Source: a bacterium
Lineage (GTDB): Bacteria; Zhuqueibacterota; QNDG01; JAFGCO01
Length of the DNA stretch: 59,429 bases
NCBI GenBank assembly: GCA_016932575.1
Contig: JAFGCO010000039.1
Location: forward strand, 1 to 59,429
Direction of reading: 5' to 3'
Part shown: piece after piece, positions 5,965 to 22,919 of the stretch
Layout: every line of letters begins with the position of its first letter
How positions within the stretch are numbered: position 1 is the stretch's first letter
The notes under the pieces: generated by a model
What the model was told of the DNA's origin: nothing
Database searches by the model: none
Seen by the model: only the letters and a program-made list of their open reading frames with translations
Position numbers and translations under genes: made by a program

Positions 5965-7683
5965 TTATCTGCTGACAATATCTTCTATTTCCTGGATAAT
6001 GATCCCTTGCGTCACGATATATTGATCAGCAATATCTTCTTTCCAGTACTGAACCGCTTTCTTGATGCTCGTTTTGATCTGTTTACGAAAATTATGCAGC
6101 AAATCACTCAGTTTTCTAATTTGCGAATACACCCTTGGTTTCCGAAACAGAGCAGGATGCAGCAGCAATGTCTCGAGTTCAGAAAAATGCCTGTACAATC
6201 TTTCCTCAATTTCTTCCTTTATTTCTCTTTCATTCTTCTGCATGGTTAAGACCGGACTCAGGGTAATTTCTATAGCACGTAAAACTTCATCCATCCGTTT
6301 GAGCCGCCTTAGGCAATCGATGCGATGTAACCCGAATTCCTTTTCATCGGTCTCAACCGTCTGCAGGCCGAACATTTGTTTATCAAACATCAGGACCGCC
6401 CTCAAATGTGCAACTTTCAGATGTTCTTCACCAAATAAATTAACCAGTTGTGAAAGAATCATCTTAAGCTCCCGGGCATTCCCCGGCCAATGGTACTGCC
6501 GCAGCTCTTTTATAATATCCTCTGGCAATGCTGTATCATGTTTGGTATATCTTTTCCAGAAATGTCTGGCCAATCTCGCAATATCATCCGGATGGTGCCG
6601 AAGCGCCGGCGTGGGAATTAAAAAAGAGCGCAATCGATAATACAGGTCTTCCCTGAACTGTTCCTTTCGTACCATGGAAAACAGATCCCGGTTGGTTGCT
6701 GCAATGATTCTGACATCAACATCGATCGTTTCATTGGAACCGACCTTGCGTATGGCCCCTTCATCCAGAGCTCTTAAAATCTTGGCCTGATGTCTTAATG
6801 AAAGATCTCCGATCTCATCCAGAAAAAGACTGCCCTTATCAGCATACTCCCAGACACCTTTTCTATCAATAGCATCCGTATAGATTCCTTTTTTAGATCC
6901 AAACAGCTCCGTTTCCAGCAATTCGGTCGGAATGGCACTGCAGTTAATCGCTGCGAAGTGCTTGTTTTTACGGGGACTGTAATTGTGAATATTGCGTGCC
7001 ACGACTTCCTTGCCCGTGCCTGTTTCCCCCGTAATCAGGACCGGATCATCATTTTGAGAGGCCCGCAGGATGAGTCTGCGGATCAGCTTGATTTCACGCG
7101 ACTCCCCGACATAACTCTTTCTTAAATCCTCGGGTACTTCCATATCCGATATCAACTTGAGAAGTTCCTGATAAAATTCCGACCTTTCGAGGGGCCGGCA
7201 AAGTATCTGGTACTGATCAAATAATGTTGCCTTGGACGGTGACTTGAGGCTCCCCGCAGAATCCCAGATCGTGTCAAACAGAAGGGAATCTATGCCGATA
7301 AAATAAATATTTTCTCTGTCGTTGATTTTTTTCAGTGCAGACAAATCAGTATGTATCTGCCTGTTGGCCTCTTCTATGTTTTTAAGCAGACTCTGGCAGC
7401 CCCTTTTAAACTGACCAGACAATTTATAAGAGGCCCGAATCAATGGTATCTTCTCATGCTGAAGCATGTAATCAGCCAATCTTTTCCCCTGATGCTTATG
7501 ACCCCGGTCAATCACATTATCAAGCAGTAAATGGCTCACCTCGGATTTTTTTACGACAAATATTGCGGGTGCATTTTCTTTTTTAATATTTTCAAGCGTT
7601 GTCCCGGATTCCAAGTTGAATCGATATTGAAAAAATCGATCCGAAGCGTGAAATCCTGAAATTTTCAATGATTGAATTTCCAT
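5965..7683 (-). CDS. Sigma54-activator-type AAA+ protein without a recognisable DNA-binding helix
   Basis: A 572-residue protein with AAGGTGG just before the start. Residues 1-190 are an unrecognised N-terminal domain, not a receiver domain. The central AAA+ domain (about 190-420) is that of bacterial enhancer-binding proteins: YVGES, Walker A GETGTGKE, NCSAIP, LFLDEIGDL, RIIAATNRDL, FREDLYYRL and HWPGNARELK. The sigma54-contact loop, normally GAFTGA, reads GIYTDA. The C-terminal 150 residues are helical and I see no Fis-type helix-turn-helix, which is unusual. Its gene is divergent from the ubiquitin-like operon with a 378-bp shared upstream region, so it is the likely local regulator. RtcR-like activators have the same general layout (sensor domain plus AAA+), but I cannot confirm a CARF fold here. 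Confidence 0.8.
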   Translation of the reverse strand: MEIQSLKISGFHASDRFFQYRFNLESGTTLENIKKENAPAIFVVKKSEVSHLLLDNVIDRGHKHQGKRLADYMLQHEKIPLIRASYKLSGQFKRGCQSLLKNIEEANRQIHTDLSALKKINDRENIYFIGIDSLLFDTIWDSAGSLKSPSKATLFDQYQILCRPLERSEFYQELLKLISDMEVPEDLRKSYVGESREIKLIRRLILRASQNDDPVLITGETGTGKEVVARNIHNYSPRKNKHFAAINCSAIPTELLETELFGSKKGIYTDAIDRKGVWEYADKGSLFLDEIGDLSLRHQAKILRALDEGAIRKVGSNETIDVDVRIIAATNRDLFSMVRKEQFREDLYYRLRSFLIPTPALRHHPDDIARLARHFWKRYTKHDTALPEDIIKELRQYHWPGNARELKMILSQLVNLFGEEHLKVAHLRAVLMFDKQMFGLQTVETDEKEFGLHRIDCLRRLKRMDEVLRAIEITLSPVLTMQKNEREIKEEIEERLYRHFSELETLLLHPALFRKPRVYSQIRKLSDLLHNFRKQIKTSIKKAVQYWKEDIADQYIVTQGIIIQEIEDIVSR

Positions 7684-7825
7684 TTTCCACCTTCTCGTTG
7701 TCTATTTCTTATTCTTTTATTTTATCAGAAATACATTGCCGTCAAAATCAATCGGTGTCAGGCATTCAATTATCATTTCAGCCGGCATGTCTCTCTGTTG
7801 TTGAATAAACGCTCACAGACAAGAA

Positions 7826-8022
7826 CTCAACCCCTGAAATTGTTGAGTTGTTTCTTTCTCAACAAGACAGAACTCAACCCTAAAATTAATTTTTATTGTT
7901 TCTATTGTCTTTACATGCGTTGAGTTATAAGCGGGTATACCTTTTGCGTTATTCTCAGACAAATGCTGTTGAGAAAATTACATGAAAGTTGAGAAAGTCA
8001 AAATGTTATAAAAAACTATAAT
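7826..8022 (+). promoter_or_regulatory. Regulatory region of the ubiquitin-like operon: seven GTTGAG sites, GG-N10-GC element, TATAAT box
   Basis: The hexamer GTTGAG or its complement CTCAAC occurs at 7826-7831, 7842-7847, 7858-7863, 7873-7878, 7919-7924, 7968-7973 and 7988-7993, far above chance for under 200 bp. The first two face each other as an inverted repeat (AACTCAAC...GTTGAGTT). A GG-N10-GC pair at 7934-7947 with TTGC at the -12 side fits a sigma54 promoter. A consensus TATAAT at 8017-8022 fits a sigma70 -10 with two hexamers around its -35 region. Which promoter is real cannot be decided from sequence. The first gene starts at 8062. Confidence 0.55.
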
Positions 8023-8061
8023 AAATATTTATCAAAGTCAAGTTATTTATGGAGCATCTCA

Positions 8062-8517
8062 ATGTATAAAATTACTGAAAAACCGCTGCATACCGATCCA
8101 CTCACTTTCACAGATGATTTATACATCACGATTCACTCGCATAAAGACATTGTTTTTACTGAAAATCCTGATCATTCTCATTCTGTTCTGGCTTCTATTA
8201 TAAAGAATGACCGGTCAGTCTATCTGTTTAAAGACAGCAGGTTGAGTGGCTTCGACATTCTCGTTAATGGTCAAAAAGTCTTTTCTTTTACGCCACTTCC
8301 CGTGAATTGCAATATTTCAGTCTGCCATCAGGATAAAATCCATGATTTTTCCTTTGAATATACTGAGGACAGAAAAAAAACGGCTTCCACATCCTATTGT
8401 CCATATTGCTGGCTGCCTTTTGAAAAAAACGAGCAGGTGATTTGTATTAAAGGAGATGAATTCCATGAATGGTGTGCAGAAAAAATTCAGGAATTTAATA
8501 TCAAAAAAACCCATTGA
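8062..8517 (+). CDS. Small protein with C-terminal treble-clef (RING-like) zinc finger
   Basis: A 151-residue protein, first gene of the long rightward operon, with GGAG seven bases before the ATG. Residues 15-100 are rich in short beta strands and include DSRLSGFDILVNGQKV, reminiscent of an FHA-like sandwich, but this is not certain. The C-terminus holds C113-x2-C116, C128, then H135-x2-C138, a compact metal site like the prokaryotic RING/treble-clef fingers known from operons with E1, E2 and JAB genes. By analogy it may recruit targets or the E2 (an E3-like role); this is inferred from context. The next gene starts inside its 3' end (53-bp overlap), so the two are probably co-translated. 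Confidence 0.65.
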   Translation: MYKITEKPLHTDPLTFTDDLYITIHSHKDIVFTENPDHSHSVLASIIKNDRSVYLFKDSRLSGFDILVNGQKVFSFTPLPVNCNISVCHQDKIHDFSFEYTEDRKKTASTSYCPYCWLPFEKNEQVICIKGDEFHEWCAEKIQEFNIKKTH

Positions 8518-9676
8518 TAACACTGCCAGGACAGCGCGCATTCATAAAATTCCCTGGATGCAGCTTGAAAAAATCCAAAACACCATTCCCGTAGTATTGG
8601 GTTGCGGGATGAACGGGCATTATGTTATCCTTAATTTTGCAACACTGGGTGTAAAAAAAATAATCGTGATCGATCCTGACAGACTGGCTCCTACCGATCT
8701 GGGAAAAACCCTCTTTCCTGAGCATCATGCAAAAAGAAAAACACTGAAAGTCGATGCGATTAAAGCCATGGTTCGAGCTGTCAATCCATCGGTTGCTGTT
8801 TCCTCCTATCCGATGAGTTTTTCGGTTTTTCCCAAAAGCATTATTTTGGATTTGCTGAATAACGGATCGGCCATTTTTCCCATCATTACCGTGGATAACC
8901 GGAAAACAATGCTGCAGGCGAGTCTTTTCTTCCGCTTACTTAACCAGACAAGCTACATGGGCGCATTAACAGCGCCGCAGCTTAAATCTCAAGTTTATGT
9001 GTCCAGACCGGACAGTGGCTGCATTGCCTGCCTTTTTACAGAAGAGGATTATAACTTTTTATCTATTCAAGAAAGCTGTACCGGAGAAGCAGGCGCTCCG
9101 GCATTAAATTCTGTAGCTGCTCAATGCAGTTCAGGCATTATTCATGAAATATTTAAAAATTCCATGAGCCAACTGGATGCTCAGACAGAGGAATCATATA
9201 AGATCGTTTTTTCAAGTCTGCAAGGATTTGAATCTCTGAGCATTCCTGTATCCGGCCGATGCCGGTATCATTATTCATCGGCAAAAAAAGTCATCTCAGC
9301 AAAAAAAGAATGGACGCTGGATACACTTTTTAAACAGTGTTCACAAAGTCTAAATTCTGCAGAAAATGACATCCATTTAAGTTTTGCTTTGCAGGATAAG
9401 AAATATCATTTGTCGGCCCGTTGTTCGAAATGTGGCTCTGTTTTCCCTCTGGGGAGTATCGACCGACAGGGAAAACGATGTTCTCAATGCAATGAAAAGA
9501 ACAAAATACTGATACCTGATCGTTATCAGGAAAAAATAACAAAAAACGATCTGACCTTAACCTATCCCGAACAATTGAACCAAACATTGAACGATATTGG
9601 CCTGCTCAGCCGGGATGTCCTGTTTTGTTCGACATCCTCTAAAAAGAAATCAGTACTGATTCGTATTCAGAAATAA
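8465..9676 (+). CDS. E1-like (ThiF/UBA-fold) ubiquitin-activating enzyme, divergent
   Basis: A 403-residue protein. I prefer the ATG at 8465 because AGGAG lies nine bases upstream; an ATG at 8456 sits directly against it. The Rossmann nucleotide-binding motif GCGMNGH (46-52) is followed by IDPDR (about 69-73), and TVDNRK (about 142-147) takes the place of the usual DNxxxR segment. The family NLNRQ motif is replaced by TDLGKTLF, so the usual ATP-binding Arg is not evident. C186-x2-C189 and a C-terminal CxxC...CxxC pair suggest zinc binding; C205 in ESCTGE is a possible thioester cysteine. The expected role is to adenylate a small ubiquitin-like protein and pass it to the E2 encoded next. Confidence 0.85.
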   Translation: MNGVQKKFRNLISKKPIDNTARTARIHKIPWMQLEKIQNTIPVVLGCGMNGHYVILNFATLGVKKIIVIDPDRLAPTDLGKTLFPEHHAKRKTLKVDAIKAMVRAVNPSVAVSSYPMSFSVFPKSIILDLLNNGSAIFPIITVDNRKTMLQASLFFRLLNQTSYMGALTAPQLKSQVYVSRPDSGCIACLFTEEDYNFLSIQESCTGEAGAPALNSVAAQCSSGIIHEIFKNSMSQLDAQTEESYKIVFSSLQGFESLSIPVSGRCRYHYSSAKKVISAKKEWTLDTLFKQCSQSLNSAENDIHLSFALQDKKYHLSARCSKCGSVFPLGSIDRQGKRCSQCNEKNKILIPDRYQEKITKNDLTLTYPEQLNQTLNDIGLLSRDVLFCSTSSKKKSVLIRIQK

Positions 9677-9692
9677 ACCAAAGAGGAACTTT

Positions 9693-10316
9693 ATGCCCCT
9701 GAATAAAAAAGAAAGCAACCGACTAATCCAGGAAAAGGCGCTGCTGGAAAAATGGATTGTGAATCATGACCGCATTTCAATCCAGGAAACAGGTGGAAAT
9801 CCGCCGACTTTCTATCGGATTGTGTTTCAAAACATAAAAACCACAGTGGTTCAGAACAAGGAAGATCTGAAATTGACCGAACCGCCGGTAAAAATCATGC
9901 CGGTCACCATTGTCATGACGATGAATTTGGAAAACTATCCTTTATCAAAGCCGGAGATCATCATGAGCCCTGCATTTGATCAAAAAGGATCCATTCTTTA
10001 TCTGTATAATACACATGTACTTTTCTTCAGTGTTTGTTTATTTACCAGATGGCACATTCAGTTTACCCTGGTGGATGTGATCCGGAGAGCATGGAATCTT
10101 ATTACATACAATCATCATATCATGGGCCTCGACAGAAAGGACTGCCTTAATCCTTATGCGCTTGAATATTATAAGACCATGATGCTTAAACAAAAACTTT
10201 ATTTTCCATTGGATACAGCAATCGAATATGAGGACCTTTCGATGCTGCATCAACAAAAGAAAAATCCAGGTGCTTTATTTAAATTTTCAAACCTGAAGAA
10301 CGGGACAATCAAATGA
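9693..10316 (+). CDS. E2-like (UBC-fold) conjugating protein
   Basis: A 207-residue protein with GAGGAAC before the ATG. The core matches the E2 signature: MNLENYPLSKPEIIMSP (YP..PP-like strand segment, 77-93), His108, then Cys115 followed by Trp120 and a TLVDVIRRAWNLI helix. This reproduces the E2 order HPN...C...W...L..v...l. Cys115 is the predicted thioester cysteine that takes the modifier from E1. The region after residue 140 is specific to this protein. It follows the E1 gene by 16 bp and its stop overlaps the next start as ATGA, so the products are made together. The fold assignment comes from motif order only. Confidence 0.72.
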   Translation: MPLNKKESNRLIQEKALLEKWIVNHDRISIQETGGNPPTFYRIVFQNIKTTVVQNKEDLKLTEPPVKIMPVTIVMTMNLENYPLSKPEIIMSPAFDQKGSILYLYNTHVLFFSVCLFTRWHIQFTLVDVIRRAWNLITYNHHIMGLDRKDCLNPYALEYYKTMMLKQKLYFPLDTAIEYEDLSMLHQQKKNPGALFKFSNLKNGTIK

Positions 10317-10993
10317 AGCCACAGGTGGTTAAAAACCGGTCCAGAAAAACTCTATCCATGAACTTTTCATCTGCCAGGGAGACAGATCCCTGGCATTGTC
10401 TGATGCAAAATCTGGCCAACCCTGTTCGTCACGGAATAGACCTGCAGGGAAAATGTTATTTGTCCCTGGACCTGCCTTCGGAACAGGAAGAAAACACATT
10501 GGACTACTGGCTCAAAAATTTTCAAAAAGTACAGAAAGAATGGCTGTCCGGACGATGGGCCAAAGAACGAAAACTGTCCAGACAAATCAATAGAGAGACG
10601 TTCCCGATCTCACAGGAATTCAAGTGTGATGTCTATTCATACGGTCCTTTCTATACCTGTGTCTACAAATTGCCATTGTTTTTATTTCAAACAGATCAAA
10701 CCGAAACCGGGGAAAATAAAAAGACAGTCATCGCTCCTGCAGTTTACGGATGTTATGTCAATACCCGTATTCATTTCGGCAATCTTTTTTTCACACAGGC
10801 AATGGGATGGGGATTGTGTATCACTTTTTCAAGGCATTCCTGTTACAATGATCAGAATGCCATGCTTAAGCGGTTTCATGACCTGACCATTCATTTCAAA
10901 CAACAGGCATGGCCGAATATTATTTCTATGTACAATCCAAGGTTGGCCCATGAATTTCTTATCAGAAATGGGCTGAAACAAGCTGCATCTTAG
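10313..10993 (+). CDS. Unknown protein of the ubiquitin-like operon
   Basis: A 226-residue protein joined to the E2 gene through an ATGA overlap and followed 21 bp later by the small modifier-like gene. I do not recognise it. It is rich in aromatic residues and Cys, with a YGPFYTCVYKLPLF segment and a GNLFFTQAMGWGLCITF strand-rich stretch in the second half that suggest an alpha/beta or all-beta core. No signal peptide or membrane helix is visible, so it is probably cytoplasmic. Tight coupling to E2 suggests a co-factor of conjugation, such as an E2 partner or target adaptor; this is a guess from position. Confidence 0.6.
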   Translation: MKPQVVKNRSRKTLSMNFSSARETDPWHCLMQNLANPVRHGIDLQGKCYLSLDLPSEQEENTLDYWLKNFQKVQKEWLSGRWAKERKLSRQINRETFPISQEFKCDVYSYGPFYTCVYKLPLFLFQTDQTETGENKKTVIAPAVYGCYVNTRIHFGNLFFTQAMGWGLCITFSRHSCYNDQNAMLKRFHDLTIHFKQQAWPNIISMYNPRLAHEFLIRNGLKQAAS

Positions 10994-11014
10994 GCCGAAA
11001 GGAGGTGAAGTCTG

Positions 11015-11290
11015 ATGGGTGAAATCACCTTTAGACTCAGAGATGCCACTCAGTCTCATAAAGTTCAAACGGTAAAATTTCGAGAGGATGACAATCCGTT
11101 GGTGTCCGAGTTCAAAGCAAGTTTGAGTGAACAAATCGTTCGTGGTTCGGAAAGCAATGGATTGGAAGGTGAAACGATCCAACTGACCAACAAATCTCGA
11201 AACAAAGCCATTGTCGAAGGCTACTTGCGTGATCAAGTGTCTGAAGACGAAGAGGTGATCTACGGGACTGATGGTGTTGCGGGTCGGTGA
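11015..11290 (+). CDS. Candidate ubiquitin-like modifier 1
   Basis: A 91-residue protein whose start has the best ribosome binding site of the operon (AAAGGAGGTGA), as expected for a protein needed in excess. The order of secondary structure fits a beta-grasp: strand ITFRLRD, strand VQTVKFRE, helix PLVSEFKASLSEQI, then strands ETIQLTN and VEGYLRDQ. It ends GVAGR, so an Ala-Gly end with one extra Arg is present, not the classical Gly-Gly. It lies between the E2-side genes and the JAB gene, the usual place of prokaryotic ubiquitin-like genes. The call rests on size, layout and neighbours and needs a fold prediction. Confidence 0.6.
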   Translation: MGEITFRLRDATQSHKVQTVKFREDDNPLVSEFKASLSEQIVRGSESNGLEGETIQLTNKSRNKAIVEGYLRDQVSEDEEVIYGTDGVAGR

Positions 11291-11306
11291 CAGCTTGTTT
11301 TACAAC

Positions 11307-11346
11307 GCCGGGTGGCAATTCAATGAATGGGTCACCCGGCAATTTT
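11307..11346 (+). terminator. Hairpin after the modifier gene (attenuator or processing stem)
   Basis: GCCGGGTG at 11307-11314 pairs perfectly with CACCCGGC at 11333-11340; the loop can form an inner ATTC/GAAT stem. AATTTT follows. It lies 16 bp after the modifier-like gene and before the JAB gene. The T-run is short, so partial termination or protection of the upstream mRNA end is more likely than a full stop. It would make the modifier more abundant than downstream products. Confidence 0.55.
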
Positions 11347-11387
11347 AAAAATTAACACATAACGTCATCCTTATAACCGGGGGCATC

Positions 11388-12488
11388 ATGAACCAGTCAG
11401 ATCATGACTATTTTGTGGATTATATTGACCGACTGCAGGTGTACAGGCAAGAAGAAACCAATACCCATTTTCTTCAATTGCATTCATATAAAATGGATCT
11501 TGGTGAAATCGCGGACTTTTGCATCTTTGAAAAGCAGGTTAAAAATGAAATACCTGACTCGGTTCGGTATATACTGAAATCCGGCCCCTCTCCGGAGATT
11601 GCCACATCAGATTCTGAAAAACAATCATATGGGGATCTGTTAAACGAGATTCAGATACAGATAATGTTTAAAAATCGGGGAAAACACAATATGATTGACC
11701 TCAATTCGATCAATCTGAAAACGCATGCATATTACCTCTTGAATAAAATTCAAATTCATGCCGGCCAAAACAGAATCAATCCGGTGTCTCAGGAAATTCG
11801 GCTGGTCAATCTAAAAATGAATTCGGTCATTGACAAATCAGACAAAACCGGGATTTTCTCTTTCAATCCAAGCCGGCAAAAAACGTTCAGATTTGATGAG
11901 AAACCGATTCCAAAGGATAATTCTCTTATCTGCTGGCAGGGGGGAACAGTGCAGGGAATGATTCCAATAGTTATCTCCAAACGCATTCTGAACATTTTTA
12001 AGGAAGCCATTCAACAGCACCACCCAAAGGAAATCGGAGGACAACTGGCAGGTCATCTGATAAAATTTCGTCATCGAAAAGCACTCATAGTGACGGATTT
12101 ATATTTTTTTAATTCAATTGGCAATGAAACCTCATTGATGATTTCAGCTGAGGAATATATTCGCACTGCCCAGCTTATCGAAAATGAAAACAAAATCATC
12201 GCAGGATGGATACATTCACATGCACTGGGTCAAAACAGCCTGTATTGTTCTTCTGTTGATATTAGCAATCATTATCAAAAATATACAATGCCTTATGCGG
12301 TGATGATGATTGCAGATGGATCTCAACTTACAAAATCCATAGAATCCGTGGGATGCGCACAATGCCCCTACAGGGCACAATGCACTTTGCCTGAAACGCT
12401 AAAGAAAAATCTTATTCCGGGCTGGACCCTTTATACATGGACACCCAATGGTTTTTTAATGCCCGCTCATGCCCATGTCTTTGAGTAG
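11388..12488 (+). CDS. JAMM/JAB-type isopeptidase 1 (AMSH-like)
   Basis: A 366-residue protein. Residues 1-185 are an unassigned N-terminal region. Residues 190-320 form a JAB/MPN metalloprotease: Glu215 in HPKEIGG, then GWIHSHALGQ with His276 and His278, then SSVD with Ser288 and Asp291. The spacing after the second His is two residues longer than the usual HxH-x7-S-x2-D, but SSVDISNHYQKY is very close to eukaryotic AMSH. All metal and catalytic residues are present. A CAQCPYRAQC cluster at 323-332 may bind zinc. It should trim the modifier precursor or remove it from targets. It follows the modifier gene in the same operon. Confidence 0.88.
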   Translation: MNQSDHDYFVDYIDRLQVYRQEETNTHFLQLHSYKMDLGEIADFCIFEKQVKNEIPDSVRYILKSGPSPEIATSDSEKQSYGDLLNEIQIQIMFKNRGKHNMIDLNSINLKTHAYYLLNKIQIHAGQNRINPVSQEIRLVNLKMNSVIDKSDKTGIFSFNPSRQKTFRFDEKPIPKDNSLICWQGGTVQGMIPIVISKRILNIFKEAIQQHHPKEIGGQLAGHLIKFRHRKALIVTDLYFFNSIGNETSLMISAEEYIRTAQLIENENKIIAGWIHSHALGQNSLYCSSVDISNHYQKYTMPYAVMMIADGSQLTKSIESVGCAQCPYRAQCTLPETLKKNLIPGWTLYTWTPNGFLMPAHAHVFE

Positions 12489-12575
12489 GCTTGATAGCAA
12501 ACTGAGCATATAAGTGTCTTTTTAACCAAGGTCAATTTTTAAAAGGACAGATGTAAAAAGAAGTGGAGGTTTGTA

Positions 12576-14162
12576 ATGGCAGAAAGCTTGTATCAGCAAA
12601 AAGAACAGATACAAGAAATAAACTGGAAAGAAGTCGAAGCCATTCTTCAGGAAAATGATGCTTTACGTAAAGAACTGAAGATCCGTGATGAAAATAAACC
12701 CCTGCATATTGCAGTCGTGGCTGAAGATTATAATCAGACAAAGTATCGAAATACCCTGATACCGCCGGCTACAAAGAATACGGATAAAATGCTGCCCCAG
12801 ATCAAAGTGATCGATCCAAGTGGAGGAGAGGTGATTGTCCCGGTTCACAATAAAATCAATCCAACATATCTGAAAAAGGGGAATACGGTTTATGTTAACG
12901 GTGATTCCCTGGTCATTGGGGCAAATGGTTTTTATGAAGGTGGAGAGGTTCTGTCATTTGAAAGAATACTGGAGGATGGCCGTATTGTTTTAAAAAGTGA
13001 ATCAAGCAATACATCAATCCTTTGCTGGCCGAGTCAATCCCTTGATACGACTGCATTAAAAAAGGGAGACGGTATCCGGCATTTGGGCTCCGTTGCATTA
13101 GAAAACGTTGGTCAATCCCTGAATCTGGATGATTTGACAATGATCCCTGAATATAAGCCTTATTCTGACATTATCGGAGATCGATGGAAAGAAATTTTCA
13201 ATATTTATTCAAGAAAAATCCAGTTGCTTTATAACCGGATTAAAAATAACACTCAAACCGGCCGAAAATATTTGAGCATCGCTCTCTGGGGATTAAATGG
13301 CAACGGGAAGACATCCGGGGCCCAGTGTATGATCTGGGATGCAGCCCAAAGATTCGGTATTTCAGATAAGAAAAGTATTATTGTTGTTAAGGCAGGTGAA
13401 ATACTCTCGAAATGGGTTGGACAAACACAAAACAACATCGCCAATATTTTTAAAAAACTCAGAGAGATCTCTGCAGAACACGGCTTTGCTATTCTAATGA
13501 TTGACGAATTTGATGCGCTCTGTCACGGAGGGGGAGGAGATACGGAAAGCTCCTGGATTGAAACTTCCATTGTGCCCCAGTGGAAAGCAGAACTGCAGGG
13601 GATGATACCCCTTGAAAATGTATTGATTATTGTCACCCTGAATGATAAACGCAATGTTGAAGCTGCCATCTTGAGAAGATTTACGGATATGGAGGTGATC
13701 GCACAACCCGAATGCGTTCCGCCACTGATGCATCATATTTTCCGTAAAGAATGGGCTGATCAAAAGTTGAATACCGACCGAATCTCAAAACCACTGATGC
13801 ATTTTCTCAAGTCACAATCCTTGGGAAAACTGCATTTTGCAAATAAACATTTTCGGGAATTCTATCCTGCTGATATCATGTGCTATGCGGATATAGAAAA
13901 TATCTGTATTGAATCCATAGAGATAGCTGAATTTGAAGAAAGACAACCCACTGAAAAAGACATACTGGCGTGTGCTCAAAAACTTTATACCGAAAAGGCA
14001 AAACGAATCCGGGTTGGTGTTGAGAATGGAGTCAGGCGCTCCAATGCGCGTAATTATTTCAATTTGTCAGATGAAGAGTTCAATCATCTTGACAGTGTCA
14101 TCCTCTCTGAAAATCAGTCGCATTCCGGTCATTTGACCGCAGATGACATGGAGGATTTATAA
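12576..14162 (+). CDS. Proteasomal/Cdc48-type AAA unfoldase (ARC/Mpa/PAN-like)
   Basis: A 528-residue protein with GTGGAGG upstream of the ATG. An N-terminal coiled coil (about 10-40) is followed by one or two OB-like beta barrels (70-180) and a single AAA module: Walker A GLNGNGKT (239-246), pore loop WVGQTQ (280-285), Walker B ILMIDEFD (306-313), sensor-1 TLND and arginine fingers in ILRRF (365-369). Coiled coil, OB and AAA in this order is the plan of ARC/Mpa and PAN, the ring ATPases that feed tagged proteins to proteasomes. No proteasome subunit is encoded here. Given the conjugation genes beside it, it probably recognises modified proteins and unfolds them. It is followed within one base by a second unfoldase gene. 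Confidence 0.82.
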   Translation: MAESLYQQKEQIQEINWKEVEAILQENDALRKELKIRDENKPLHIAVVAEDYNQTKYRNTLIPPATKNTDKMLPQIKVIDPSGGEVIVPVHNKINPTYLKKGNTVYVNGDSLVIGANGFYEGGEVLSFERILEDGRIVLKSESSNTSILCWPSQSLDTTALKKGDGIRHLGSVALENVGQSLNLDDLTMIPEYKPYSDIIGDRWKEIFNIYSRKIQLLYNRIKNNTQTGRKYLSIALWGLNGNGKTSGAQCMIWDAAQRFGISDKKSIIVVKAGEILSKWVGQTQNNIANIFKKLREISAEHGFAILMIDEFDALCHGGGGDTESSWIETSIVPQWKAELQGMIPLENVLIIVTLNDKRNVEAAILRRFTDMEVIAQPECVPPLMHHIFRKEWADQKLNTDRISKPLMHFLKSQSLGKLHFANKHFREFYPADIMCYADIENICIESIEIAEFEERQPTEKDILACAQKLYTEKAKRIRVGVENGVRRSNARNYFNLSDEEFNHLDSVILSENQSHSGHLTADDMEDL

Positions 14163-14163
14163 A

Positions 14164-16077
14164 ATGGCCAACGGTCGGACAGTGAATCATGAAAACAGAA
14201 ATTCTCTTTTTTTGTTCCGGGAAATACGGGATACCGATCGCCGTCAAGGCTATCGGGACACCTGGGCCTTGGCCAGCCAATTCAACGGTAACATTCAGGT
14301 GATAGAGCAATTGGGCATTATTGACCTCACACAGGCAGTCTATGAAAACGGGATGGAACGATGTGTGGGTATGGGCCGTGAAGTGAGAAAAGTGTTTACC
14401 ATACTCTGCCAAAGATATTCAAACACACCGCTTATCCATGGGAAAAATGGTGTGGGCAAAAGCTCCATTCCAAAACATATGGCTCACAGGATTGTTAACG
14501 GCAGGGTTATCACGCCGTTTCATACATGCCGGATTCTCAGCCTGAATCTGGCTTTGTTAACAGCAGGTGCCGGTATGCGCGGCGAGGTGGCTCAGAGGTT
14601 AAAAGATTACTTTGATATGTTAGATAAAAATCCCCATGTCATTACAGTCATTGATGAATGCCAGTTATTGGCAGCCAGAGATTTTATGGAAAGCGAAATT
14701 ATTCATTTTTTAAAAGTCAATCTGAGCAATGGAAAATACCGGTTTATCCTGATTACTGATTCAGCAGGCGTGGGTCTGATTACTGAGGATCCTGCAATAA
14801 TGGGGCGGGTATCTCCTGTTGAAATCCCCGTGCCCGGCGAACGTTCGGTGATACGAATCGTTCAAGGGGCAGTCTTGCCGGAATTGGAGCGGCATTATAA
14901 AATAAAAATACCGAAAAATCTGATTGAAACTGCTTACAAACTGAGCGAAGAAGTTTTATCGTATGACAGGGAACAACCGGCAAGATGTATCAAATTCATG
15001 GATACTTCCATGGCCCATACAAGCTATATTAAAACTCTCAGGAGATTGTCCGATTCAAGTTCAACTTTACTGCGGGAAGAAAACCTCGAAACGACAGCAA
15101 AGGAATTTCTGCAATCGAGCCGCTCAACACTCTGTCAGAAAGAGCGTTTAAGAAGACTCGACATACTCGCAGACACATTAAAAAAACAGATTATTGGTCA
15201 GGATGACATTATTGACGCAATTGTCCAGGATTTACAACTGAAGTTTCATCAGAAACCATCCAGGATTGGTGCCTATTTTCTCTACGGGGATAGTGGTACT
15301 GGCAAAACTGAACTTGCCACACAAATCGGGATTCAACTGAGCGGGGAACGGTTCTGGGTAAGAATTGATTGTTCCCAGCTCATTGATCGATGGGCAGTCA
15401 CCACACTCCTTGGAAGCTATCCGGGATTAATATACAGTGACAGAAGCTCGATGTTCAGCAGAATTCGCTTCAGCCCTTATACAACATTTATTTTTGATGA
15501 ACTGGAAAAAGCCCATCCGGAAGTGATCATGCTGTTTTTACAGATACTTCAGCCACCGTACATTATCCGGGACAATCGAGGTGTAAAACTGGATTTTTCA
15601 AGATCACTCTTTTTTTTCACAAGCAACGTTGCACATACGGATCAGGACAAGCAGACTTTTGGATTTCAAAATTCAAATAACATAAGTTTCAAAAAGGATG
15701 GTCTTCAATTGACAGCCTATTTTCCAAATGAATTTCTTGGCCGGCTTCATAATAAAATTTATCGTTTTCATCCGATCGATAGAATGAAGGATCTTCTTCT
15801 GATATGTGACCTTGAAATTGCCAAACTGGCAAAACGATGGGATGTTGAATTGCTGATAACAGAAAAGGCAAAAAGATCCCTCATTGATTCATCTCTTTGC
15901 AAGCGATTTGGAGTCAGGGGGATACAATCCGAGTTGTCACGCGTCATTGAACCTCAGCTTTGCAGGATCTTAAAAAATCGTTTTGATCGTATGGAAGGCA
16001 GGAGAGGAGAACCAATAATCCAAAAAATAAAAATTATCAAGAGTGGAAATCAGGTCAAACTGATTTCCGGAAAATAA
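14164..16077 (+). CDS. ClpA/ClpB-like double AAA+ unfoldase without N-domain
   Basis: A 637-residue protein. The ATG at 14164 has GGAGG nine bases upstream inside the preceding gene; an ATG at 14143 would overlap it with no signal. Two AAA+ modules are seen. D1 has Walker A GKNGVGKS (93-100) and Walker B TVIDECQ (161-167). D2 has IGQDD, Walker A GDSGTGKT (375-382), FIFDELEKAHPE (442-453), TSNVAH and VRGIQSEL. There is no Clp N-domain and no ClpB middle coiled coil, so it is shorter than Clp proteins. FGF (499-501) lies where ClpA/ClpC carry the [IVL]GF/L loop that docks ClpP. It may hand tagged substrates to ClpP or disassemble complexes. Confidence 0.82.
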   Translation: MANGRTVNHENRNSLFLFREIRDTDRRQGYRDTWALASQFNGNIQVIEQLGIIDLTQAVYENGMERCVGMGREVRKVFTILCQRYSNTPLIHGKNGVGKSSIPKHMAHRIVNGRVITPFHTCRILSLNLALLTAGAGMRGEVAQRLKDYFDMLDKNPHVITVIDECQLLAARDFMESEIIHFLKVNLSNGKYRFILITDSAGVGLITEDPAIMGRVSPVEIPVPGERSVIRIVQGAVLPELERHYKIKIPKNLIETAYKLSEEVLSYDREQPARCIKFMDTSMAHTSYIKTLRRLSDSSSTLLREENLETTAKEFLQSSRSTLCQKERLRRLDILADTLKKQIIGQDDIIDAIVQDLQLKFHQKPSRIGAYFLYGDSGTGKTELATQIGIQLSGERFWVRIDCSQLIDRWAVTTLLGSYPGLIYSDRSSMFSRIRFSPYTTFIFDELEKAHPEVIMLFLQILQPPYIIRDNRGVKLDFSRSLFFFTSNVAHTDQDKQTFGFQNSNNISFKKDGLQLTAYFPNEFLGRLHNKIYRFHPIDRMKDLLLICDLEIAKLAKRWDVELLITEKAKRSLIDSSLCKRFGVRGIQSELSRVIEPQLCRILKNRFDRMEGRRGEPIIQKIKIIKSGNQVKLISGK

Positions 16078-16119
16078 CTGCTCAATGAATCTGTATTTTA
16101 CTAAGAAAGGAGTGATGAA

Positions 16120-16176
16120 ATGAATTCCATCATTCTCAGACATCATCTTAAAAAACAACAGGCATTACTGAAATAA
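16120..16176 (+). CDS. Possible 18-residue microprotein or leader peptide
   Basis: AAAGGAG at 16106-16112 sits seven bases before an ATG that opens an 18-codon frame ending with TAA (a basic, amphipathic peptide with HHLKKQQ in the middle). It lies in the 130-bp gap between the Clp-like gene and the next operon gene. The ribosome binding site is as good as that of any large gene here. It may be a leader peptide that controls the downstream genes, or chance. Confidence 0.35.
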   Translation: MNSIILRHHLKKQQALLK

Positions 16177-16206
16177 CAATAAAACCAGAATATCGGAGGT
16201 AATCCC

Positions 16207-16596
16207 ATGAAAAAGCAACAGGAAAAAGAAGCATCCAAAACTGTAAAAGTGTCTGTTCGGGCGGGTTTTGGAAGCAAACTAAGCACGCAATTGCCCCTAA
16301 ACAGTCTGCAAAATACTTCTGTGAGCGATTTGGCCAAAGTAGTCGTCAAGGAACATATCAAAAGTCCGGATATCTCAGCACAAAAGGCAGCCGAATCACT
16401 GAATGACATTTTGCAGGATCCTTTCTCTGATATCGATATGCGTATGCATACGCAGAATGAGGTTATCCCTGTCTCGAGCGATGTTGAACACGAAAAAATC
16501 CGGAATCTGATTAATGAGAAAAAACTTCATTCAGATGATATCATGGAATTTGAATTGGCAGCATCAAGAATGGCCAGAGGGGGCCATGATCAATGA
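16207..16596 (+). CDS. Candidate ubiquitin-like modifier 2 with ARGG-HDQ end
   Basis: A 129-residue protein with GGAGG before the ATG. It opens with a Lys/Gln-rich tail (1-11), then strand TVKVSVRAG, strand KLSTQLPL and helix SVSDLAKVVVKEH, the start of a beta-grasp pattern. It closes with EFELAASRMARGGHDQ: Gly125-Gly126 after an Arg, as in ubiquitin (LRLRGG), followed by a three-residue tail that an isopeptidase would have to remove. The middle part is longer and more helical than in ubiquitin. Its stop overlaps the next start (ATGA). A JAB and a full E1 gene follow, consistent with its being their substrate. It could instead be an unrelated small helical protein. Confidence 0.5.
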   Translation: MKKQQEKEASKTVKVSVRAGFGSKLSTQLPLNSLQNTSVSDLAKVVVKEHIKSPDISAQKAAESLNDILQDPFSDIDMRMHTQNEVIPVSSDVEHEKIRNLINEKKLHSDDIMEFELAASRMARGGHDQ

Positions 16597-18047
16597 GTTC
16601 ACAATTTCCGGAAATACCATTATTCGAAACATTAGAAATACTGCTGCATAAAGATGAACCGTTATTTTTATCGAATGATACAATATATGAATTGATAAAA
16701 TATTCAATCCCCAATACATCTGCCAGGCCATTGAATATTGTCCTGACTTCCGGTTCTGTACAGGACTGTATTCGAAATGACATGAAGCAAGTATTGAAAA
16801 CACTTCTTCATTCTATCCTGAAAGAATGGAATATTGATGAATGCTTTTTTGAGGACTTATCTCTCTATTCCTTTCTTTCAGAGATTGAAAAACGTATGTG
16901 TGAAATTGCCGCCTGCAGAAAGTTTAAAAAAACAATTCAGCTGGATCTGCTAGAGTCACTTCAAATTCAGGAACATGACATCCAAAATATCAGAATGTTT
17001 CAGAGTGAAACTGAATCCGCTTTGAATAAAATATCACAAAAATATCATTCAGGATTCAATTACCTCCTTAAGAATTTGTGGATTGAAAACCTGTTTGTTT
17101 ATCAGCTGCCGCACGATGAAAGCCTTTATATGCAGCAGGTCTTAAATGACATGAAGGCTTTAATATCAAATAACATGAATGATTTGATGGGCATGCTGTA
17201 TCAACGGGAAATGATACCTGAATTTCTTCGCGGGCGAAGAATGCACCGATATATCATCGGGCTTCTTGAGCAGGACAAATCATTCCTCACAAATCTCAAA
17301 TCTTCCAACCGGATGCTGAAAAGGGCAAAGAAAAAAATCAAAATGAAGGAAATGCCGAACATGTCGCTTGACATATTCAGAAAACAATTTTACAGAAAAG
17401 TGCAGAAACAATGTCAAAAAATGAAGGCAGAATTCCTTACTGAAAAAACAATGATCAGACAACTTCGTTATATGAGACAAATCCTGAAGCAAATGAATTC
17501 AATGCATATCAGCCTCATGACTGAATATGGGCAATTTCAATGCGGTCCGTTTGAGATCCGATATAATGGCCGGGGACAGTTTCATTTTGGCTACCATACA
17601 GGCCAATATATCATGCAGGATGGAGATGAACCGTTTTCCCAATACTATCTTTTTGATGATGCCTATGTTGCTGTTCCCTTAACCAAAAAAGATATTAAAA
17701 GAGGCTATTTGGGATCGAGCATACCTCCGCCTGTTGTGGTCAATTCATATGGCCCTCATCCGTTTCTCCAGAATCCGCAAACAAAAAACCAGGTGATCTG
17801 TCTGGGAGACACCGCTGTATCAGAGTTGGTTGACAAGAGACATCCACTTGTGGACAGGGTCATGAATGCCATATTAATGGGAGTAAAAGTCATGCGTGAA
17901 GGGCATCATATGAAGAATAAAAATTCCTATTATTTCAAGCTGTCTGACCCGATTTTCAGTACAAGACGCATCGATAAAAAAGGGCTGAAGACATATGCTG
18001 AAAACAGTTTTATCTCAAAATATCATAAAAAACCAAGGGGCATATAA
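16593..18047 (+). CDS. Unknown operon protein, possible second E2-like domain
   Basis: A 484-residue protein coupled to both neighbours (ATGA overlap upstream; the next ATG follows its stop directly). Residues 1-310 are mainly helical with a Lys/Met-rich coiled segment at 240-300. Residues 315-440 are strand-rich and hold an E2-like string: IPPPVVVNSYGPHPFL (377-392), then NQVICLGD with Cys403, then a helix VDRVMNAILMGVKVM. This mirrors the E2 order pP.v.f...HPN...G.iCl...helix. If correct, Cys403 would be the thioester cysteine of a second conjugation cascade with the JAB and E1 downstream. Otherwise it is an unknown scaffold. No membrane segments are seen. Confidence 0.5.
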   Translation: MSSQFPEIPLFETLEILLHKDEPLFLSNDTIYELIKYSIPNTSARPLNIVLTSGSVQDCIRNDMKQVLKTLLHSILKEWNIDECFFEDLSLYSFLSEIEKRMCEIAACRKFKKTIQLDLLESLQIQEHDIQNIRMFQSETESALNKISQKYHSGFNYLLKNLWIENLFVYQLPHDESLYMQQVLNDMKALISNNMNDLMGMLYQREMIPEFLRGRRMHRYIIGLLEQDKSFLTNLKSSNRMLKRAKKKIKMKEMPNMSLDIFRKQFYRKVQKQCQKMKAEFLTEKTMIRQLRYMRQILKQMNSMHISLMTEYGQFQCGPFEIRYNGRGQFHFGYHTGQYIMQDGDEPFSQYYLFDDAYVAVPLTKKDIKRGYLGSSIPPPVVVNSYGPHPFLQNPQTKNQVICLGDTAVSELVDKRHPLVDRVMNAILMGVKVMREGHHMKNKNSYYFKLSDPIFSTRRIDKKGLKTYAENSFISKYHKKPRGI

Positions 18048-18998
18048 ATGAACGCAAATCAAAAAAAGAAAAGACGGACAAAATCAAAAAAACAAGCGAT
18101 CCTTTGGATGACTGATTTTGCCAAAAAAAAACTCGACGGCTATGCTTCGATTGCAAACCGGGATGAATTTATGGTAATATTGCTTGGCCAAAAAAACAAC
18201 AAAGACGTGGTCGCCGATGTATTTTTGTTATATGACCAGACAATCGGATGCGGTTCTGTTAAAGTCTCCGGACGGGGGATCAATCAATCTCTCTGGGAAC
18301 TGCAGGATAAATATCCTGAAGAAAAATGGGAAATCCTGGGCTGGTCTCACGGACACGGAGATATGGATGTATTTCATTCTTCGATTGATGATGAAAATAC
18401 CCGGGAAATCTTTCTCGAACAACTGGCACCTGTTCGAATGGTTGTTAAAAACCTTGTTTCCCAAATGGAACTGTCAATGTGTGATAATAACCCGTATATG
18501 TATACCGATAACCGCGGCAGTTATCTGAAGTTTACGGATTTAACGCAAAAATCACTTCCTGCGACTATCAAGATGGAAAAACATACGCCATTTTATACAG
18601 GCTGGATATTCTCACTGGTCACCAACGCAAAACACCAATATTATGCAGAACGGTTTAGCAAACACTGGTGCAAAGAATGCAACCGGGTGGTAATTAAGCA
18701 AACTCAAATGACAGTGAAATTTTTAAAAACTCCATCTTCATGGAAACTCGATCTTTCAGATCTTGAGCGGGAGTTTTATGAAAAGACTGAAAGGTACAGA
18801 ATGGGCATTTCATACGGAAACTGGAATATTCATTATATGGTTGGCAATCAGCGGGGAAAATCAGGCAGTGAGAATATCCCCATGTCCTGTGACAATGAAA
18901 ACAGCCTGATTGATTTGTCCTCATGTGATGGATGTTACCGTTTTTCATATTTAAAAGGAGACAAAAATGGACAGGCTCCATCGTCAGAGGATCATTAA
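18048..18998 (+). CDS. JAMM/JAB-type isopeptidase 2
   Basis: A 316-residue protein that starts on the base after the preceding stop codon. After a Lys-rich N-terminus, the JAB domain (18-150) has Glu40 in RDEFMV and GWSHGHGD with His101 and His103, then HSSIDDEN with Ser111 and Asp114: a canonical HxH-x7-S-x2-D site. The second half has a WCKECNRV Cys pair near residue 210 and lacks recognised domains. It differs strongly from JAB 1, so the locus carries two unlike proteases, probably for two modifiers or for processing versus removal. Its 3' end overlaps the following E1 gene by 32 bp. Confidence 0.87.
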   Translation: MNANQKKKRRTKSKKQAILWMTDFAKKKLDGYASIANRDEFMVILLGQKNNKDVVADVFLLYDQTIGCGSVKVSGRGINQSLWELQDKYPEEKWEILGWSHGHGDMDVFHSSIDDENTREIFLEQLAPVRMVVKNLVSQMELSMCDNNPYMYTDNRGSYLKFTDLTQKSLPATIKMEKHTPFYTGWIFSLVTNAKHQYYAERFSKHWCKECNRVVIKQTQMTVKFLKTPSSWKLDLSDLEREFYEKTERYRMGISYGNWNIHYMVGNQRGKSGSENIPMSCDNENSLIDLSSCDGCYRFSYLKGDKNGQAPSSEDH

Positions 18999-20271
18999 TG
19001 GATGGGTCCAGTCCTATCTGAGTGAATCCCAAATCCATGTTCTTGTTTCAGAAGAAACAAATCCGCTTTTACTGGATGCGCTTATCAAGGGATTCATCAT
19101 GATAGGTATGGGAGCGGTTCATCTGATTTGCGACAGGCCAATTTTTCATTGTGATGACTACAGGGCATTTGCAAATGCCATCCAGTCATTGACAGCAATT
19201 GACAGTGAAAGCAATCCTGATCAACATTCGGATTGTATTGTGGATTTATGTAATACGTATAATGAGTCTGCAAGATTAAACCGGATGAAAGGCGGATCAA
19301 AGGAAATCCTGGCTTTTATGAATAATGAAAAGGTACTATGGACCACAGGAGATCAAACCGGCCCGATGATACATGCAGTGAATAAAATTGAACAGGCGGT
19401 TTTAGAACCCGCCTCATTGAGCCTTTTTCTCGCCGGAGCAGTTCTTGCAGAAGTGGTCCGGAAGCTGATGCCCCTGGAAAAATGGAAACACAGTGAAATG
19501 CAGCATGATGTGCATTTTCCATTACTCACAGCCACTGCATCGGACGAAACATATCATCCGCGGTATCCCTCTATTGCTGTCATTGGTGCGGGGGCTCTGG
19601 GGAACTGGTTTCTTTATGCCCTCCTCGATGAAGCCATGCTCCTTGGAGTATCAGAAATCATCCTTATCGATAATGACAGTGTTGATCCGACGAATCTCAA
19701 CCGGCAGGTTTTTTTCACCCATGAGGACACGAATAAGTACAAGGCAGAAGTCATAGCAGAAAAAATTGGTCAATTATACCCCGGATTGACTGTGATCCCG
19801 ATAACCAGCCGCGTAGAAGATGTAACGTTTTTTGACCGTAAAAAACTCAACCCTTCCATTCTGATCTCCTGCCTTGATTCATGGAAAGCCAGGGCGATTG
19901 TCAATGAAATTGCCAAAATCAAGGGCATTCCATTGATCAATGGAGGCTCTGATCCCTATTCATGCAATGCTTATGGTTTTTTTCCGGGTCTTTCATGTTG
20001 TCTGGACTGTGCTATCGGCATCAATGCCAAAACAGAGTTGGAGACCCATGCGGCTTCGTGCCGGGACGCCGAACCCAGTGTGGTCTTTACCAATATGATC
20101 GCAGCCGGCCTGATGCTCTGGCTGATGCAGCATCCCCGACAGTCATGTTCGGGTCTGCTGCAATATGATTTAACCCAGCCTGAACGTATTGGAACCATCG
20201 ATCTCCGTATGAAAAACGAAAATTGCCGTTGTTTAACACTAAAAACGGGAAATATTGAGGTGCTTTCATGA
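18967..20271 (+). CDS. E1-like enzyme 2 with canonical adenylation domain
   Basis: A 434-residue protein; AAAAGGAG stands six bases before the ATG. Residues 196-430 form a full ThiF/E1 adenylation domain: GAGALGN (207-213), IDNDSVDPTNLNRQ (234-247), Lys-rich crossover, CLD (302-304), zinc pair C345/C348, and Cys365 in AASCRD followed by PSVVFTN, a likely thioester cysteine. Residues 20-60 read like a worn Rossmann start (IHVLVSEE...IGMGAVHLICD), so the protein may be an inactive-plus-active pair in one chain, as in eukaryotic UBA1. It is the last gene of the rightward operon and probably works with JAB 2, the 484-residue protein and modifier 2. Confidence 0.9.
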   Translation: MDRLHRQRIINGWVQSYLSESQIHVLVSEETNPLLLDALIKGFIMIGMGAVHLICDRPIFHCDDYRAFANAIQSLTAIDSESNPDQHSDCIVDLCNTYNESARLNRMKGGSKEILAFMNNEKVLWTTGDQTGPMIHAVNKIEQAVLEPASLSLFLAGAVLAEVVRKLMPLEKWKHSEMQHDVHFPLLTATASDETYHPRYPSIAVIGAGALGNWFLYALLDEAMLLGVSEIILIDNDSVDPTNLNRQVFFTHEDTNKYKAEVIAEKIGQLYPGLTVIPITSRVEDVTFFDRKKLNPSILISCLDSWKARAIVNEIAKIKGIPLINGGSDPYSCNAYGFFPGLSCCLDCAIGINAKTELETHAASCRDAEPSVVFTNMIAAGLMLWLMQHPRQSCSGLLQYDLTQPERIGTIDLRMKNENCRCLTLKTGNIEVLS

Positions 20272-20318: not shown

Positions 20319-20891
20319 CTACAGATTGAACATTTCATTATTTTTTAATTTGGATCTGACCAAATCAAGATTGACGCGTCGGAAGTAGTCCTCTAAATTA
20401 TCAATTCCATAGAGCGATTGTTCGATCCATTCATGTTTCACCTCTCCATCACTCAACAGATACTCCTCAATAATGACTTCGCGGTTAATTCCCAGAATGC
20501 TCAATAATGCAGCGATAACAACTCCGGTTCTGTCTTTACCTGTGGAGCAATGAATCAATAAAGGAAATTGGATCTCCTGTTCTTCAATTGTTTTTATTAT
20601 TTTCTGAAGCCAGGAGCGAACTTCCGGTGTTTTGGTCTCATACTTTTCATAGTCATTTGAGATCGGAAAATGAAAATAGGCTTCGGCAAACCGTCTTGGC
20701 CTGAGATCCGGGCCTTTCCGAAGATTAAAGATAGTGCCGGGCATACCGATATCTTGCGGTGAGGTAACAAAGTCTATTTTACCGCCTCGGTATAGTCGGT
20801 TCACCGGAAGAAGCGGCCTTTTTGCAATCTCATTCACCCATTCTCCCACATCACGAAAGTTCACGCATCCATTTGTATAGTCAAGGCCCAT
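20319..20891 (-). CDS. Tyrosine-specific protein phosphatase (CX5R)
   Basis: A 190-residue protein of the Y_phosphatase3 type. It begins with the family NFRDVG motif (11-16) and has the active-site loop HCSTGKDRTG with Cys115 and Arg121. It lacks a signal peptide and should act in the cytoplasm, on phosphotyrosine or possibly phosphoinositide-like substrates. It converges on the ubiquitin-like operon with a 47-bp gap that holds a small CTCCC/GGGAG hairpin. No clear ribosome binding site precedes the ATG. Its link to the TIR gene upstream on the same strand is positional only. Confidence 0.85.
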   Translation of the reverse strand: MGLDYTNGCVNFRDVGEWVNEIAKRPLLPVNRLYRGGKIDFVTSPQDIGMPGTIFNLRKGPDLRPRRFAEAYFHFPISNDYEKYETKTPEVRSWLQKIIKTIEEQEIQFPLLIHCSTGKDRTGVVIAALLSILGINREVIIEEYLLSDGEVKHEWIEQSLYGIDNLEDYFRRVNLDLVRSKLKNNEMFNL

Positions 20892-22813: not shown

Positions 22814-22851
22814 CTTTCTCCTTTTTATTTGAAGTTCGTTCGTAGTTCCGA

Positions 22852-22919
22852 TTCGTAGTTCCGGCTTTAGCCGGCCGGCAAACATCGCCTGAAGGCGGTG
22901 CTACGAACATCCACTCTCC
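22852..22919. repeat. REP-like palindromic element, copy B (RAYT-associated)
   Basis: The same 68-bp palindromic unit as at 22109-22176, in direct orientation, upstream of the RAYT gene. It differs from copy A at two bases. The pair brackets the transposase gene and defines a cassette of about 0.8 kb. Confidence 0.85.

Follow-up and report, generated by a model that had tools for sequence, protein, structure and literature searches.

A ClpA/ClpC-like unfoldase with a putative ClpP-docking loop, encoded beside an Mpa/ARC-like ATPase in a bacterial ubiquitin-like operon

A tie to proteolysis has been predicted for the FtsH-ternary ubiquitin-like (Ubl) tri-ligase systems of bacteria and for others coupled to Pup, as outlined by Burroughs et al. 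(2020, PMC7159879). The ThiS/MoaD-JAB-ClpS neighbourhoods presented by Iyer et al. (2006, PMC1779556) gave a published prediction linking bacterial Ubl and JAB proteins to Clp proteolysis. Here we describe a 12-gene operon (8062-20271, + strand) in a stretch of 59,429 nucleotides, the whole of which is called the window, from a bacterium of the phylum Zhuqueibacterota (GenBank assembly GCA_016932575.1, contig JAFGCO010000039.1, positions 1 to 59,429). The operon holds a pair of AAA+ proteins together with E1-, E2-, ubiquitin-, JAB- and RING-like proteins. The pair, and one tripeptide in its second member, are the main subject of this report:

12576-14162, + strand: Mpa/ARC-like single-ring AAA+ ATPase, 528 amino acids, without an HbYX tail (TIGR03689, OB domains)
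14164-16077, + strand: ClpA/ClpC-like double-module AAA+ unfoldase, 637 amino acids, without an N-domain or middle domain (TIGR02639, alignment, model)
15658-15666, + strand: FGF tripeptide of the second AAA+ module (D2), at the position of the ClpP-docking loop, residues 499-501 (alignments; VGF in the second operon copy)

The reading frame of the Clp-like protein is open from 14143. The start at 14164, which gives 637 residues, is preferred because GGAGG lies a few bases upstream, only one base separates it from the Mpa-like stop, and it agrees with the start of the relative described below. With this start the two genes are one base apart inside a ubiquitin-like operon, just as the first-pass annotation of the window had described them.

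The locus is similar to the FtsH-ternary systems, as these are outlined in PMC7159879, in that Ubl, E1 and JAB genes and candidate E2 and RING-type genes accompany an AAA+ protease or chaperone. FtsH, MoxR and vWA proteins are found there, whereas the partners here are ARC-like and ClpA-like, and the operon contains none of the former. In the neighbourhoods sketched in PMC1779556, the ClpS adaptor stands in a sulfur-type operon, whereas a whole unfoldase and an E2-like protein are present here. The Bil operon also unites Ubl, E1, E2 and JAB; in the outline of a review (PMC11354881) it has four genes without unfoldases, whereas the present operon has twelve, with two E1-like proteins, two JAB-like proteins and two AAA+ ATPases. 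The Mpa-like protein shares with Mpa/ARC of the Pup system the OB and AAA layout and TIGR03689 as its top NCBIfam match, but it falls far below the cut-off, has no HbYX tail, and the only PF00227 protein of its genome is HslV-like. A beta-grasp Ubl with E1 and an E2-like protein stands in the place of Pup and PafA (no search for Pup or PafA was made). Like ClpA, ClpC and ClpE, the Clp-like protein has two AAA+ modules in the same order, a tripeptide at the docking position in D2, sensor 2, and no ClpB-type middle domain. Unlike them, it has no N-domain, its pore loops in the first module (D1) and in D2 are altered, it lies on a separate long branch of the D2 tree, and it is encoded in a Ubl operon.

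No account of a Ubl operon with an ARC-like and ClpA-like pair was found in the open-licence literature; one may be in print in Burroughs 2011/2012 (prokaryotic RING, ubiquitin-like systems). Bacterial Ubl systems tied to FtsH or ClpS are already in print. The annotation had called a link between Ubl tagging and proteolysis by Clp not usual in bacteria. This is fair for the ClpP route, but published predictions have linked such systems to ClpS (PMC1779556) and to both FtsH and Pup (PMC7159879).

The reading that we prefer is that Ubl-marked proteins would be delivered to the housekeeping ClpP by a dedicated ClpA-like unfoldase, and we consider the chances of this to be evenly balanced. It is supported by the tripeptide at the docking position, by the hydrophobic-G-F pattern retained in an otherwise diverged loop, by the lack of a middle domain, and by the presence of ClpP in both genomes that carry the operon.

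As presented in PMC9035409, ClpX and ClpA insert their IGF loops into hydrophobic docking sites on ClpP. In our alignment, FGF is located at the position of IGL in Escherichia coli ClpA, VGF in Bacillus subtilis ClpC, VGF in ClpE, LGF in the ClpC of the same genome and IGF in the ClpC of a second genome, G074. Hydrophobic-G-[FL] is present at this position in all five references that partner ClpP, and in none of the six others (four ClpBs, ClpL and TssH). A wider alignment was made with 48 of the 51 available rows, after omission of L061 and L062 (copies of L066 and L067) and L023 (loop IGY). Its rows, collected with a pattern search, lean towards ClpC, and the loop is unreadable in two of the 48 (L052 and L035). 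[ILVM]G[FY] is found in 40 of the 44 other readable rows, and the four exceptions are two ClpBs and two unclassified rows. From composition only, a hydrophobic-G-[FLY] tripeptide has a probability of 0.0036 at a single specified place; the whole Clp-like protein contains two, VGL at 203 and FGF. Thus, the position of FGF is more than chance, and its spelling is unusual. The Clp-like ortholog of G074 carries the D2 loop KKVGFSK, in which VGF, a canonical spelling, occupies the same place as FGF. Between the two D2 modules, 128 of 251 positions are identical outside the loop and 8 of 27 inside it, and the G and F are among those eight.

The top NCBIfam match of the Clp-like protein is ClpA (TIGR02639, E 1.5e-73, below the equivalog cut-off), and its best solved relatives are ClpC. 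According to the reference alignment, two AAA+ modules with Walker A and Walker B are present, and D2 retains Walker A, Walker B, TSN and the sensor-2 Arg. No match to the Clp_N domain was found in the protein by the Pfam search. Only 53 residues precede D1; this part has 166-189 residues in the eight references that carry an N-domain, and 78-85 in ClpE and ClpL. The stretch between D1 and D2 is 63 residues long, versus 57 in ClpA, 105-114 in ClpC, ClpE and ClpL, and 158-178 in ClpB and TssH. A ClpB-type disaggregase was rejected because the long coiled-coil middle domain is missing (63 residues versus 175-178 in ClpB). These results agree with the annotation, which had placed FGF where ClpA and ClpC carry the [ILV]G[FL] loop for ClpP and had seen neither a Clp N-domain nor a middle domain. 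As the D2 pore loop GYVG of ClpA and ClpC is missing, we class the protein only as ClpA/ClpC-like, not as ClpA or ClpC.

The AlphaFold model of the Clp-like protein (48 sequences; mean predicted local distance difference test score, pLDDT, 79.8; predicted template modelling score 0.54) has a Clp fold. The FGF tripeptide lies in a low-confidence flexible loop. Residues 497-508, which contain it, have pLDDT values below 50; they come after the strand 482-487, with helix 493-497 on one side and helix 509-519 on the other. In the model, such low confidence is as expected of a flexible docking loop, and equally of any poorly modelled loop. In a Foldseek search with the model, ranks 1-10 are ClpC chains from ClpC-ClpP entries, and rank 11 is a ClpB. 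The VIA-align values are tied (Z 24.5-27.3), and the best is 9a66_A (Z 27.3, root-mean-square deviation 10.1, 580 aligned residues). In a D2 tree of 29 rows, the two orthologs group together as a starred pair, whose branch measures 4.74, and are placed with no named class.

The second copy of the operon is in G074, a genome from another family of the phylum (70% complete). The Clp-like protein was found in two of 147 related genomes at E 1e-80, and the Mpa-like protein in two of 82 genomes of the phylum at 1e-40, the own genome being included in both counts; the G074 matches have E 1.7e-90 and E 1.6e-118 (40% identity), respectively. Contig C323 of G074 has the same order as the window: RING-like protein, E1a, E2-like protein, 226-residue protein, Ubl1, JAB1, Mpa-like protein and a Clp-like protein that the contig end cuts off after residue 280. 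Contig C536 begins inside D2 (52% identical to the D2 of the window) and continues with Ubl2, the 484-residue family, JAB2 and E1b. The genes for the Mpa-like and Clp-like proteins are adjacent in both copies. Conservation within the operon is highest for the Clp-like protein, with 53% identity in D1 and 49% in D2 between window and G074, versus 27-40% for the other eleven proteins. As a side observation, a fragment that by eye resembles a tyrosine recombinase lies downstream of the second operon copy (L064:11254-11730, - strand) and may hint at mobility.

Further copies were sought with alignment A1, made of the two Mpa-like proteins, at thresholds of 1e-20, 1e-25, 1e-15 and 1e-15 over four sets. 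Three sets gave no match (0/8, 0/395 and 0/400), a weak negative since the thresholds differ and the sets hold no known positive. The fourth gave nine matches in 387 (3.0e-21 to 3.5e-17) in open frames of 560-614 residues, matched over the OB-AAA part only; they are probably ordinary ARC-type ATPases. Alignments A1, A2, A3 and A4 had no match in viral contigs. Among plasmids, there were three generic matches to the Mpa-like protein and one to E1a, and the Clp-like protein matched 210 records, none of which covers 80% of it. It also matched 150 phage records, and the 57 that cover at least 80% are all below 60% identity. A search of the genome contigs gave 42 loci; judged by loop and length, these are probably generic Clp proteins.

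The own genome (4.41 Mb, 94.5% complete) has a canonical ClpP adjoining ClpX, and ClpC and ClpB are also present; the names ClpX, ClpC, ClpB, HslV and HslU are our reading of the sequences themselves. A second PF00574 match is SppA-like, as judged from its sequence. The single PF00227 match is a 182-residue HslV-like protein adjoining HslU. ClpP is also present in G074, which has one PF00227 match, again HslV-like. No 20S proteasome beta subunit besides these HslV-like proteins was found with PF00227 in either genome, G074 being 70% complete, and a 20S proteasome was rejected as the partner in the own genome.

Among NCBIfam models, the Mpa-like protein best matches the proteasome ATPase TIGR03689 (E 2.8e-31, residues 81-367), with 108.8 bits versus the equivalog cut-off of 504.75, which is not reached. 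Tandem proteasomal OB domains precede the single AAA+ module; in the Pfam search PF16450 is just over its cut-off and PF17758 just under. The best solved relatives are proteasome-associated ATPases, and the AAA part also matches Cdc48. The Walker motifs are kept, and the aromatic pore residue is W in the window and Y in G074. No HbYX-type tail was found at the C-termini, which are EDL in the window and ITV in G074. As HbYX is also missing in nine of nine ARC-type loci of another phylum, its absence says little by itself.

The remaining genes of the operon, all on the + strand, are as follows:

8062-8517: RING-like zinc protein, 151 amino acids, degenerate, with a single CxxC...HxxC set
8456-9676: E1a, ThiF-type adenylating enzyme, 406 amino acids (PF00899 E 4.9e-18; 36% identity to the G074 copy)
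9693-10316: E2-like protein, 207 amino acids, candidate active Cys115 (N-x-H...VCLF-x-RW motif)
10313-10993: conserved 226-residue protein with no assigned function, in the same place in G074 (30% identity)
11015-11290: Ubl1, ubiquitin-like, 91 amino acids, C-terminus TDGVAG-R (AlphaFold model, Foldseek)
11388-12488: JAB1, JAB/JAMM isopeptidase-like, 366 amino acids (PF01398 E 3.6e-4, below the cut-off; JAMM residues)
16207-16596: Ubl2, small conserved protein, 129 amino acids, ending in GG then HDQ (GG tail in both copies)
16593-18047: conserved 484-residue protein with no assigned function (27% identity to the G074 copy, GPHPFL kept)
18048-18998: JAB2, JAB/JAMM-like by motif, 316 amino acids (JAMM residues; no family match)
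18967-20271: E1b, ThiF-type adenylating enzyme, 434 amino acids (PF00899 E 3.7e-38)

Ubl1 has no family match. Its AlphaFold model (pLDDT 74.6) shows the beta-grasp order of elements, and almost all of the 50 Foldseek matches listed are ubiquitins or Ubls (best E 8.9e-4), including an archaeal ubiquitin and a bacterial Ubl-deubiquitinase complex. According to the model, Ubl1 has a ubiquitin fold. In the two copies its TDGVAG is followed by one or five residues, and the GG of Ubl2 by three or four residues at the C-terminus. No family is over its cut-off for Ubl2. Both tails are of a kind that a JAB peptidase could trim. E1a and E1b are both over the Pfam cut-off. JAB1 keeps Glu215, His276, His278, Ser288 and Asp291, and JAB2 keeps Glu40, His101, His103, Ser111 and Asp114. 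The E2-like motif with Cys115 is also present in G074, and the protein has no family match. The CxxC/HxxC residues of the RING-like protein are kept in G074 and make up one set, half of a RING; zf-RING_2 matches it with E 2.2 in the window and 0.086 in G074, both below the cut-off. The E2, RING and JAB2 readings are based on motifs. Ubl2, the 484-residue protein, JAB2 and E1b (16207-20271, + strand) form a second Ubl set, and the side-by-side Ubl modules are kept in G074. A PRTRC-type module was rejected for this set: E1b has a weak PRTRC_ThiF match (below the cut-off), and the other three have no PRTRC match.

The flanking genes, all on the - strand, were also inspected. A sigma-54 activator (5965-7683, PF00158 E 9.3e-62) is divergent from the Ubl operon and is a possible regulator of it. 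A sigma-54 promoter ahead of the operon, suggested by this activator, was rejected: no site was found in 7684-8061, and the window holds 39 matches versus 45.5 expected. Further out, 3210-5831 encodes an 873-residue protein that ends in a RyR domain (PF02026 E 6.5e-16) and has a weak mid-protein AAA match. On the other side, a tyrosine-phosphatase-like protein adjoins the operon end (20319-20891, PF13350 E 2.7e-22), and a TIR-domain protein with weak Thoeris ThsB matches lies just downstream (20978-22072, PF13676 E 5.8e-18). These are followed by a weak match to an IS200-like Y1 transposase (22229-22885, PF01797 E 6.8e-4, below the cut-off) and by a 789-residue protein (22947-25316) with the odd combination of a phosphofructokinase domain (314-725, PF00365 E 3.8e-37) and a long N-terminal part that is TIR-like by eye.

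In the pathway that we propose, E1a and the E2-like protein, perhaps with the RING-like protein, would attach Ubl1 (or Ubl2, via E1b) to targets, and the JAB proteins would trim the precursors and remove the tags. The N-domain and the middle domain are the adaptor contact sites of ClpA, ClpC and ClpB. As the unfoldase here has neither, it would receive its substrates from the Ubl side, perhaps via the Mpa-like ATPase or via its own short N-terminal helix. It would then thread them into the ordinary cellular ClpP, with the FGF/VGF loop under D2 docking. The first-pass annotation had suggested that Ubl tagging could feed a Clp protease. The tripeptide at the docking position, VGF in the ortholog, the flexible loop and ClpP in both genomes agree with this suggestion, and neither of the two outcomes that the annotation had named as fatal to it was observed; binding to ClpP and selection of substrates through the Ubl are the parts that we infer. 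A wider form of the proposal is that the locus is a bacterial counterpart of the ubiquitin-proteasome system built on ClpP. E1, E2, the RING-like protein perhaps, Ubl and JAB would be its tagging part, and the ClpA-like unfoldase, which has no N-domain and may stack with the ARC-like ring or be supplied by it, would recognise Ubl-marked proteins and degrade them with the housekeeping ClpP. This form is possible, although we hold it to be somewhat more doubtful than delivery to ClpP as such.

Several points weigh against delivery to ClpP. The role of the Mpa-like ATPase has no explanation in it, and the operon contains no ClpP gene. The docking of the loop is predicted from sequence and model, and ClpC and ClpB are not distinguished by the fold search. 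F is the first residue in none of the 40 [ILVM]G[FY] rows, so that the FGF of the window is outlying. Only two operon copies were found, and in G074 the contigs C323 and C536 are taken to be one locus, with about 64 residues between them, across a contig gap. In both copies the pore loop of D1 reads GMRG, versus KYRG in ordinary ClpA, and that of D2 reads GLIY in one copy and GLVW in the other, not the aromatic GYVG; these changes may weaken ClpA-like threading. The D1 change has parallels in TssH (GMKG) and ClpE (GIRG), whereas the D2 change has none in the reference set. Further departures from ordinary ClpA are a single Arg in D1 where ERRF has two, and TD in place of TT at sensor 1.

The altered pore loops would fit protease-free remodelling, in which the two ATPases extract Ubl-marked proteins from complexes as Cdc48 does, the JABs recycle the tag, and the tripeptide is left over from a ClpA/ClpC-like ancestor or serves some other purpose. 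The Cdc48 match of the Mpa-like protein points the same way, and no peptidase family besides the JAB proteins is matched in the operon. However, the tripeptide stays hydrophobic-G-F while the loop around it diverges, the middle domain is missing and both genomes have ClpP; on balance, remodelling appears rather unlikely. The F at the first position, outside the usual [ILV], and the adjacency of the two ATPase genes in both copies could also mean that the partner bound by the loop is not ClpP but, for example, the Mpa-like ring or some other product of the operon, the likeness to IGF loops being convergent. As the ortholog has a position and a VGF spelling like those of canonical ClpP partners, we regard this as improbable. 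Least probable is that the Mpa-like ATPase works with HslV in place of a 20S proteasome and that the Clp-like protein merely supports it. The HslV-like protein is the sole PF00227 match in both genomes, and the Walker motifs and aromatic pore residue of the Mpa-like protein suit such a role, but HslU adjoins HslV in the own genome, and the EDL and ITV C-termini differ between the copies and are not HbYX.

If delivery to ClpP is correct, a ubiquitin-fold tag would address proteins to a chambered protease that is widespread in bacteria, with no 20S proteasome involved. Tag-based degradation could then arise by the coupling of a Ubl module to any available chambered protease, and the operon would be a small system for testing how ubiquitin came to signal degradation, and when.

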